Assembly: GCA_040756055.1 (NCBI GenBank)
Contig: JBFLZR010000003.1
Span: 231,260-295,259 of the forward strand
Direction of reading: 5' to 3'
Origin: Candidatus Zixiibacteriota bacterium
GTDB taxonomy: Bacteria > Zixibacteria > MSB-5A5 > GN15 > FEB-12
DNA length: 64,000 nucleotides
This document shows, piece after piece, positions 12,823-15,060 of the stretch. Under the pieces are notes generated by a model, which did not search any database, was not told where the DNA came from, and worked only from the letters and a program-made list of their open reading frames with translations. The translations under genes were made by a program, and so were the position numbers. Position 1 is the stretch's first letter. Every line of letters begins with the position of its first letter.

Positions 12823-13617
12823 TTGACAAAACGTTTACAACCAATCCTAGTTGTCGCCATGGTTCTGTTGGTTCCCGCACTAGTGTTTGCTGGCACCAAT
12901 AACTTTGGGGTAGCTAAGACTGCCTATCAGAACGGCAGCCTGGTTGTGGAGTTGGTAGTGTCCAATGCTCACCCGCTGGCAGGGCTTGATATTCCTCTTC
13001 GTTACTCCGAAGGCGTAACGTTGGAGAAGGTCACATTTGAAGGTACCCGTGTATCTTATTTTGACTTCAAGTCTGCCTACATCAACACGCAGGATCGTAC
13101 CGTTCTCATCGGGTTACTGCCTCAGCTGAGCCCGGTTGCGAAACCCGATCTCGCGGTTGGTGAGGGTGCCATCTGTCAGCTGCACTTCCGGGTGGACGAT
13201 GAGTCGGTTTCCGAGGTAACTATTGAAGCTATAGCGACCAAGGATCCGAATCACGTGCTGACCTACATCTACCATGATGGTGATGTCCCTCGCGGTCTTT
13301 ACCCTGAGTTCAACAGTGTTACTGTTTCGCTCAGCAATCCCGGCGAACTGCCGCAGGCGTACGCCCTTCGCCAGAATTTCCCGAATCCGTTCAACCCCAC
13401 CACCGATATCTGCTTCGATCTTCCGAAAGCCGGTAAGGTGAATCTGACTGTTTACAACGTACTCGGTCAGAAGGTTGCTACCCTGGTTGACGGTGATCTG
13501 GAAGCTGGAAACCATACCATCACCTGGGATGCTTCGCAGCAGGCCAGTGGTGTATACTTCTATCGTATAGAGGCCGGTGAGTTCTCAAAGACGATGAAGT
13601 CAATGTTGTTGAAGTAA
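12823..13617 (+). CDS. Secreted protein with cohesin-like domain and T9SS/FlgD-like C-terminal domain
   Basis: 264 residues. A Sec signal peptide (about 1-23, ending V-F-A) is followed by a beta-sandwich of cohesin-like character (about 25-170). The ~85-residue C-terminal module has the markers N-F-P-N-P-F-N-P-T-T, Y-N-V-L-G-Q-K-V and S-G-V-Y-F-Y-R, ending in K-S-M-L-L-K. This module is the type A sorting/FlgD-Ig domain typical of FCB-group exported proteins, so secretion or surface attachment through a type IX-like route is likely. Start is TTG, fixed by GGGAGGTGA seven bases upstream. It is a single-gene unit with its own promoter and terminator. The ligand is unknown. Confidence 0.85.
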   Translation: MTKRLQPILVVAMVLLVPALVFAGTNNFGVAKTAYQNGSLVVELVVSNAHPLAGLDIPLRYSEGVTLEKVTFEGTRVSYFDFKSAYINTQDRTVLIGLLPQLSPVAKPDLAVGEGAICQLHFRVDDESVSEVTIEAIATKDPNHVLTYIYHDGDVPRGLYPEFNSVTVSLSNPGELPQAYALRQNFPNPFNPTTDICFDLPKAGKVNLTVYNVLGQKVATLVDGDLEAGNHTITWDASQQASGVYFYRIEAGEFSKTMKSMLLK

Positions 13618-13682: not shown

Positions 13683-13716
13683 AGCCCTTTCCCCTTACGG
13701 GGAAAGGGCTTTTTTT
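13683..13716 (+). terminator. Strong Rho-independent terminator
   Basis: A perfect 12-bp stem (AGCCCTTTCCCC with GGGGAAAGGGCT), a 4-base loop TTAC and seven consecutive T residues. It ends the sorting-domain gene transcript and separates it from the RNA locus that follows. Confidence 0.92.
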
Positions 13717-13812
13717 ATGCGTAAGCCCAATATCTGCGTCTGGTGTGGCACAGGAACTGCGTTTTTGACGTCAGGTGGGAAAACGCGCAATTCGGGCGCG
13801 CAATTTAGCGCA

Positions 13813-13841
13813 TTGACAGTCAAAGGCTTACGACGTATGAT
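13813..13841 (+). promoter_or_regulatory. Near-consensus sigma-70 promoter of candidate ncRNA
   Basis: TTGACA, a 17-base spacer and TATGAT: 11 of 12 consensus positions at optimal spacing, among the best promoter matches in the window. The predicted start is near 13847. No open reading frame with a ribosome site follows, which suggests that it drives a functional RNA. Confidence 0.8.
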
Positions 13842-13846
13842 GGTCG

Positions 13847-14007
13847 ACTGGCACAATATTTGTTAAGTATTCAGGCAGACACCGGGGTGTTGAAAGACCC
13901 AAAAGTCTGGAGACATCTACATCAGCTTTCTTGGCGGTTGAGCTGATGAAGAAAACCCCGGATGGTGAGGAGAGAGAAGGTCTCAGCGTAAAAGTTGGGA
14001 CCTTTTT
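13847..14007 (+). ncRNA. Candidate structured non-coding RNA of ~160 nt
   Basis: An RNA of about 160 nt is predicted from the promoter at 13813-13841 to the T-run at 14003-14007. Visible helices are a long-range closing stem (CCGGGGT at 13882-13888 with ACCCCGG at 13955-13961, extendable with CACC/GGTG around a bulge), a small hairpin (AGAC/GTCT, 13895-13908) and a perfect 8-bp hairpin (CATCAGCT/AGCTGATG, 13920-13948). The terminator stem forms the 3' end. The size fits 6S RNA or a regulatory RNA. I could not match it to 6S, SRP, RNase P, tmRNA or a riboswitch class I know. A 22-codon frame at 13946 has no ribosome site and runs past the terminator. Confidence 0.6.
13978..14007 (+). terminator. 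Terminator of candidate ncRNA
   Basis: AGGTCTCA pairs with TGGGACCT (8 bp, one G-U), with a 10-base loop and five T residues after it. The GAGAGA just upstream could compete for TCTC in the left arm, so an alternative fold is possible. Confidence 0.7.
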
Positions 14008-14034: not shown

Positions 14035-15060
14035 TTACCTGATAACGATCAAGCTAACGTCTTCGTCATCGGCGGGCGCCACAGATATCTTTCTCGATGA
14101 TAAATCGTTCAGCACAGATACCTCGACTGAGACTTCTTTCCTGGCCGATGTGTACCGGGCGGTGATCATGGCCGCTTTGCGCAGGTTTTCCTCGGAGGCG
14201 TTACCGATAAGCAGCGCGACGGGCGAGCCGATATTGAGCGCTTCCAGATGAACATGGTGAGGGCGTTTGAGGGCCATCAGTCTGTTGTTGTCACTCTCGT
14301 TTCGTCCGACTACGAGTTTGGTGTCAGTATCGAGTCGGAAATGCCGTCCCACTCTGAGCAGGTTGAGGTCGTCGAAGGTCAGCTTTTCGCTGTGGGCGAG
14401 AAGGTCGCGGAGCCGGTTGGAGTAGCCGGCATCGGTCAACAGACAACCGGCAGCGGGTGATGGGTAATCATCGAGTCCGTAGTTATCGGCCAATTGGAGT
14501 TGACGTTTTCTACTGCGTCCGCTGATAGCCTCGAGCTTTTCTCGGTCAACGATACCATTCAGTTCGGCCTCGGTGGGCGGCAGTAATTTTGCCGAGAGTG
14601 GCCGTAGCAGCTTTCCTTTGAGGCCGGATTGTTTCTCTGTCAGGTTCAGTTTGTTGCGAACTTGAGACATCGGTCGTTGTCCAAGGACCTCACCGGTGAC
14701 TACGAAATCGGCTCCGGCCACTTCCATGAATTGACGGGCTTCGGTGAGCATCAGAATACGGCAGTCGGTGCACGGATTCATGTTTTTTCCGCGTCCGTAG
14801 CGCGGGTTTTCGACGATGTCGATGAATTTTTGCCCGAGGTGCATCAGTTTGACATCGAAACCGTACTTTTCGGCGGTCGGGTACGGGTCCGAGCCGCACG
14901 ATGAGCGGTCCCCAATATCGCAGCCAAAGTGAGTCATGAAGGTCAGGGCGGTAACTTTGATATTCTGGTCAAGCATTAGCAGGACTGCCAGGGCGGAATC
15001 GAGTCCTCCGGAGAAAAGCGCTATGGCATGGCCGCGATGGGGTTGTGTTTCTATAATCAC
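14035..15060 (-). CDS. ThiI/MnmA-like PP-loop protein with NFACT-R-like C-terminus
   Basis: 341 residues. The N-terminal PP-loop ATP-pyrophosphatase domain has S-G-G-L-D-S at 17-22. Cysteines are placed as in tRNA thiolation enzymes: C97/C100 in N-P-C-T-D-C and C206 in S-P-A-A-G-C. The C-terminal third resembles the RNA-binding NFACT-R type domain that is found fused to ThiI-like enzymes in several phyla. A role in tRNA sulfur modification is likely, but the modified position is not readable from sequence. Start is GTG with AGGGG eight bases upstream. It is transcribed alone and converges on the ncRNA locus. Confidence 0.75.
   Translation of the reverse strand: MIIETQPHRGHAIALFSGGLDSALAVLLMLDQNIKVTALTFMTHFGCDIGDRSSCGSDPYPTAEKYGFDVKLMHLGQKFIDIVENPRYGRGKNMNPCTDCRILMLTEARQFMEVAGADFVVTGEVLGQRPMSQVRNKLNLTEKQSGLKGKLLRPLSAKLLPPTEAELNGIVDREKLEAISGRSRKRQLQLADNYGLDDYPSPAAGCLLTDAGYSNRLRDLLAHSEKLTFDDLNLLRVGRHFRLDTDTKLVVGRNESDNNRLMALKRPHHVHLEALNIGSPVALLIGNASEENLRKAAMITARYTSARKEVSVEVSVLNDLSSRKISVAPADDEDVSLIVIR

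Follow-up and report, generated by a model that had tools for sequence, protein, structure and literature searches.

The stretch of DNA analysed here (the window, 64,000 nucleotides from a Candidatus Zixiibacteriota bacterium) very probably carries a sigma-54-controlled small RNA gene, the features of which are collected in Table 1. Judged from the locus and its homologs, the product is most likely a sigma-54-dependent, trans-acting regulatory RNA that would be induced by a signal, and we give roughly even chances to its acting in trans by base pairing. Its conservation throughout an order of uncultured bacteria, its sigma-54 promoter with boxes at fixed positions and its absence from Rfam suggest that a signal-responsive switch probably has this RNA as its output.

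Table 1. Features of the small RNA locus and its neighbours (positions in the window)
Feature	Position	Strand	Remarks
Upstream neighbour, secreted protein with T9SS C-terminal sorting domain	12823..13617	+	Pfam PF18962, TIGR04183
Strong terminator of the upstream gene	13683..13710	+	
TGCG box, distal third copy	13717..13721	+	About -133; in some homologs; fixed spacing to the -24 element
TGCG box, middle copy of putative activator (EBP) site	13734..13738	+	About -116; spacing 22-23 from the proximal copy
TGCG box, proximal copy	13757..13761	+	About -93 from the -24 GG; consensus CAnnTTCTGCG
Sigma-70-like match TTGACA-17-TATGAT	13813..13841	+	Not conserved; probably incidental or accessory
Sigma-54 -24/-12 promoter element GGCACAATATTTGT	13850..13863	+	GGCA[CT]N5TTG in every intact homolog
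Predicted small RNA, ~133 nt	13875..14007	+	Start predicted from the sigma-54 element; terminator taken as the end
P1 closing helix, 5' arm	13882..13888	+	Double changes at 7/7 pairs; 0/2000 permutations
P1 closing helix, 3' arm	13955..13961	+	Same double changes and permutation test
P2, variable hairpin	13889..13914	+	Loop CCCGCAAC in many relatives, none in the window's genus
P3, 5' arm	13920..13927	+	Double changes at 7/7 P3 pairs; 0/2000 permutations
P3 loop motif TTGGCGGTT	13931..13939	+	Near-invariant
P3, 3' arm	13941..13948	+	Compensatory changes, partner permutation
Purine-rich linker GGTGAGGAGAGA	13964..13975	+	Near-invariant within the family
Intrinsic terminator	13977..14007	+	Stem of 13977-13987 paired to 13994-14004; a T run follows
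Convergent neighbour, PP-loop ThiI-like protein with NFACT-R_2 domain	14035..15060	-	Pfam PF02568, PF18297

A conserved sigma-54 promoter precedes the RNA

The sequence-only reading of this DNA had described an independent unit, with the upstream gene closed by its own strong terminator and the downstream gene facing the opposite way, and this layout holds: the structured RNA gene has a sorting-domain gene on its 5' side and a convergent ThiI-like gene on its 3' side. In the latter, the NFACT-R_2 RNA-binding domain is fused to the ThiI-like PP-loop domain.

The same reading had placed a near-consensus sigma-70 promoter in front of the RNA. Such a match does exist (11 of 12 consensus positions, 17-bp spacing), but even congeners do not share it at that place (they score 10, 9 and 7, at other offsets); the element that is kept is the sigma-54 box. 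GGCA[CT]-N5-TTG was found shortly 5' of P1 in all 41 intact homologs examined, against a chance expectation of 0.0017 per 100 nt, and it is also carried by those homologs that were found only with a covariance model containing no promoter information. With the -12 position at 13863, transcription is expected to start near 13875, giving an RNA of ~133 nt; the start is thus probably near 13875 and not near 13848. The -12 element reads TTG[T/A] rather than the textbook TTGC, and the sequences suggest a lineage-specific preference at this element. Sigma-54-like boxes adjoining activator genes in the same genome (L161:2536, L166:2549 and L168:2606) all end in TTTGT, not TTGC. Several homologs (L009, L018, L024, L059 and L067) carry a GTTGT-N5-ACAAC-type inverted repeat ~30-40 bp 5' of the sigma-54 box; this repeat is not evident in the window copy.

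Upstream of the promoter, TGCG occurred within -95 to -87 in 34 of 41 homologs; the average at other offsets was 1.0, and none of them exceeded 5/41. The longer TCTGCG was present within 250 nt upstream at 31/41 loci, where 2.6 were expected. The distal box is often present, 17-18 bp beyond the middle copy; most loci of family f4 have retained TGCG at about -92, and in f3 it lies near that offset. The combination of two TGCG boxes with a sigma-54 box occurs once in the genome of the window, at the RNA. Repetition at a fixed distance fits an enhancer-binding activator, and the boxes resemble enhancer sites at which a sigma-54 activator would bind. The genome encodes RpoN as well as 17 strong activator AAA+ domains; a search upstream of its activator genes returned no convincing TGCG-box pair.

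A second sigma-54-like box, TTGGCATGGTATTTGT, is located directly 3' of an activator (EBP) gene elsewhere in this genome (L166:2549-2830, G000:C6). It is followed by ~230 nt with no obvious gene and no Rfam match, a terminator and a hypA-like gene, and this interval is a candidate for a second sigma-54-driven RNA.

The fold is supported by compensatory changes

The predicted fold of the RNA is a three-way junction (P1, P2 and P3) closed by P1, whose arms in the window read ccggggt and accccgg. The long-range closing helix, the 8-bp hairpin (P3) and the intrinsic terminator had all been noticed from the sequence alone, and each was recovered at the same positions (Table 1). The folding energy of the RNA was -59.9 kcal/mol, compared with -43.2 +/- 4.0 for dinucleotide shuffles (z = -4.2), none of which was as stable in 200 trials. 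Two segments hardly vary among homologs, the P3 loop UUGGCGGUU and the linker GGUGAGGAGAGA. The P2 loop CCCGCAAC is kept in many genera (for example at L012, L016, L018, L020 and L068) and is missing from the window's genus and from g4.

Covariation, proposed as a check in the sequence-only reading, was found in P1, P3 and the terminator. In an alignment of 31 homologs 97.2% of cells were paired and 22 of the 25 pairs showed double changes; no column shuffle out of 500 reached any of the five covariation measures. The terminator stem, with 11 pairs, had 99.7% of its cells paired and double changes at 8 pairs. Whole-sequence MAFFT alignments placed the 5' arm of P1 wrongly, so the covariance model was built from eight close homologs with a hand-set structure; the alignment from this model still misplaced P1 in several distant members, and P1 and P3 were therefore retested by permuting partners, which needs no alignment. 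For P1, the best pairing of the 5' region with the stretch ahead of the linker was longer within sequences than between them (7.36 versus 5.45), and so was the P3 duplex (8.22 versus 5.12); none of 2000 permutations reached these values in either test.

The RNA is single-copy where checked, and its locus is syntenic in four families

In a DNA search of 146 related genomes, 24 from the window's own family matched over the conserved 3' half, and weak short matches were also returned (L026-L028 match short stretches only). The model of eight close homologs (R1) had matches in 35 genomes, and a second model covering only P3 to the terminator, the promoter-blind R2, had matches in 42 of the 132 genomes of the phylum, 39 of them in family f1, one in the sister family f3 and two in the sister family f4; these counts refer to related genomes and not to independent events, most of the genomes being metagenome assemblies and many loci coming from incomplete ones. 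One R2 match, L151, was rejected as a false positive, as it lies in coding sequence and has no sigma-54 box. Wherever copy number was checked, there was one real copy per genome. Named records that carry the motif and match the model hits are mostly titled Candidatus Zixiibacteriota; pattern-scan matches outside Zixibacteria, among 84,980 named genomes, were discarded as the covariance model did not confirm them.

Examination of the homologous gaps between the two flanking genes, also proposed in the sequence-only reading, recovered the RNA in conserved synteny. Most f1, f3 and f4 loci are flanked by the same two genes, the sorting-domain homolog keeping its upstream position in most homologous loci and the ThiI-like gene being syntenic in four families. 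Through the ThiI-like gene we located 15 further loci in 30 genomes that had no model matches; at these loci the gap contains a diverged structured RNA together with a sigma-54 element, and four of them belong to family f2. The interval between the two genes is orthologous in four families and retains the sigma-54 box at loci with a diverged RNA as well.

The GGCGGU loop is still present in most versions from f4 and f3. In f2 it has been lost, and the terminator, GGAGAG and a long hairpin resembling P1 are retained; as read from these loci, this is strong structural turnover of an orthologous RNA. At L218, L219, L220 and L222, all in f2 and ahead of the ThiI-like gene, the RNA is shorter, with a long closing hairpin followed by GGAGAGGAGGG.

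Alternative readings of the locus

No family of Rfam 15 matched the window or 23 related loci above the gathering threshold, and the weak matches obtained at a permissive cut-off were generic terminator hairpins. This agrees with the sequence-only reading, which had recognized no known RNA class and had offered as one option an undescribed RNA family of this lineage; its occurrence in 42 genomes, the compensatory changes, the synteny and the lack of an Rfam match all support that option.

An improbable alternative is that the RNA is a sigma-54-induced sponge that titrates CsrA through GGA motifs, like RNAs of the CsrB/RsmY type. CsrA is encoded in 20 of 21 genomes of close relatives, in none of which was Hfq (PF17209) detected while controls were, and AGGA is present in the linker of nearly all family members, so that the setting and one conserved motif resemble those of the sponges. 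But GGA is not enriched (86 found versus 101 +/- 7 in shuffles), which leaves the sponge unsupported; nor is it displayed in repeated loops as in CsrB/RsmY-type RNAs. The preferred A-N-GGA is nearly absent, and the conserved GGA is usually a single one, with none in the linker of some diverged f4 loci.

It is very improbable that the conserved product is a small protein or leader peptide, translated from a short ORF (MAV...W stop) that starts at NTG-GCG-GTN in the P3 loop. The start codon position is indeed TTG, ATG or CTG in 37 of the 40 loci with the motif, and 23 motif-bearing loci share one frame relative to the linker; in 14 loci, however, other frames are found, and the ORF ranges from 7 to >50 codons. 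By inspection no ribosome-binding site precedes the start, GTG was never seen there, the silent third base of GCG is invariant and several f4 relatives have an immediate stop (TTG GCG GTA TAG), whereas base-pair compensation accounts for the variation. Conservation as a protein frame only, the outcome that would have spoken against an RNA in the sequence-only reading, is thus not what the homologs display, as their frames, lengths and stops differ.

We attach an equally small probability to the view that the conserved DNA mainly serves to regulate one of the two adjoining genes and contains a bidirectional terminator but no RNA gene. By inspection, the purine-rich linker and the terminator could also end the convergent ThiI-like transcript, but P1 and P3 covary, the sigma-54 box is oriented towards the RNA, and some genera, g21 among them, retain the RNA with only one of the flanking genes found, or neither.

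A diverged 6S RNA (RF00013), the other option of the sequence-only reading and here a constitutive housekeeping RNA read from the sigma-70-like match at 13813, would share with our RNA a stand-alone structured gene of comparable size and would draw on the quality and spacing of that match, but it is scarcely credible, since the match is unconserved where the sigma-54 box is universal, the covariance model of 6S gave no match up to E = 10, and 6S is a long bulged duplex while the RNA described here is a predicted three-way junction that ends in a terminator of its own and would be read from an activator-dependent promoter.

Proposed mode of action

In the model that we propose, sigma-54 (RpoN) RNA polymerase would transcribe the RNA gene. 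An enhancer-binding-protein activator would occupy the tandem TGCG boxes, ~93-133 bp 5' of the -24 element, and open the promoter upon its signal. The ~133-nt RNA, ending at its own terminator, would fold into the three-way junction and present the invariant loop, then the single-stranded linker and then the terminator. Because loop and linker are conserved, either or both may be the part acting in trans, whether through base pairing to target RNAs or through a protein partner, which would not be Hfq. In four congener genomes, a search for conserved 5' UTR target sites complementary to the loop or linker gave none that was convincing; matches to the complement of the linker were mostly antisense inside coding regions, and those to the complement of the loop were no commoner than with a reversed control.

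A bolder and rather doubtful extension of this proposal is that the order-wide, single-copy RNA is the dedicated, possibly the sole, output of one sigma-54 activator, and that it regulates mRNAs without Hfq by means of a rigid kissing-type loop, UUGGCGGU, and the purine linker. If true, this would be a novel kind of relay from signal to RNA, in a phylum without described sRNAs.

Comparison with known sigma-54-dependent sRNAs

Our search of the literature retrieved no paper describing small RNAs or sigma-54 regulation in Zixibacteria. Regulatory sRNAs that depend on sigma-54 include Qrr (activated by LuxO), GlmY/GlmZ (GlrR), CrcZ/CrcY (CbrB) and NrsZ (NtrC); to our knowledge, those described are proteobacterial and act mostly with Hfq, and we know of no activator site among them that the tandem TGCG boxes match. 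Examples of such RNAs are given in three papers (PMC10162802, PMC7073468, PMC6292655). Three hallmarks of this class were found at our locus and in its genome, namely a -24/-12 promoter, putative upstream activator sites, and genes for RpoN and enhancer-binding proteins. The RNA differs from Qrr, GlmY/GlmZ, CrcZ/CrcY and NrsZ in belonging to Zixibacteria, with no Hfq detected in the 21 genomes searched, and in having no Rfam family. The fixed activator boxes offer a starting point in the search for the activator and for the signal it responds to. If the RNA is expressed, sigma-54-controlled regulatory RNAs would extend from proteobacteria to the FCB side of the tree, into genomes with no detected Hfq, and with the proteobacterial RNAs it would have in common a stand-alone gene, a -24/-12 promoter, upstream activator sites, an intrinsic terminator and, as expected, induction by a signal.
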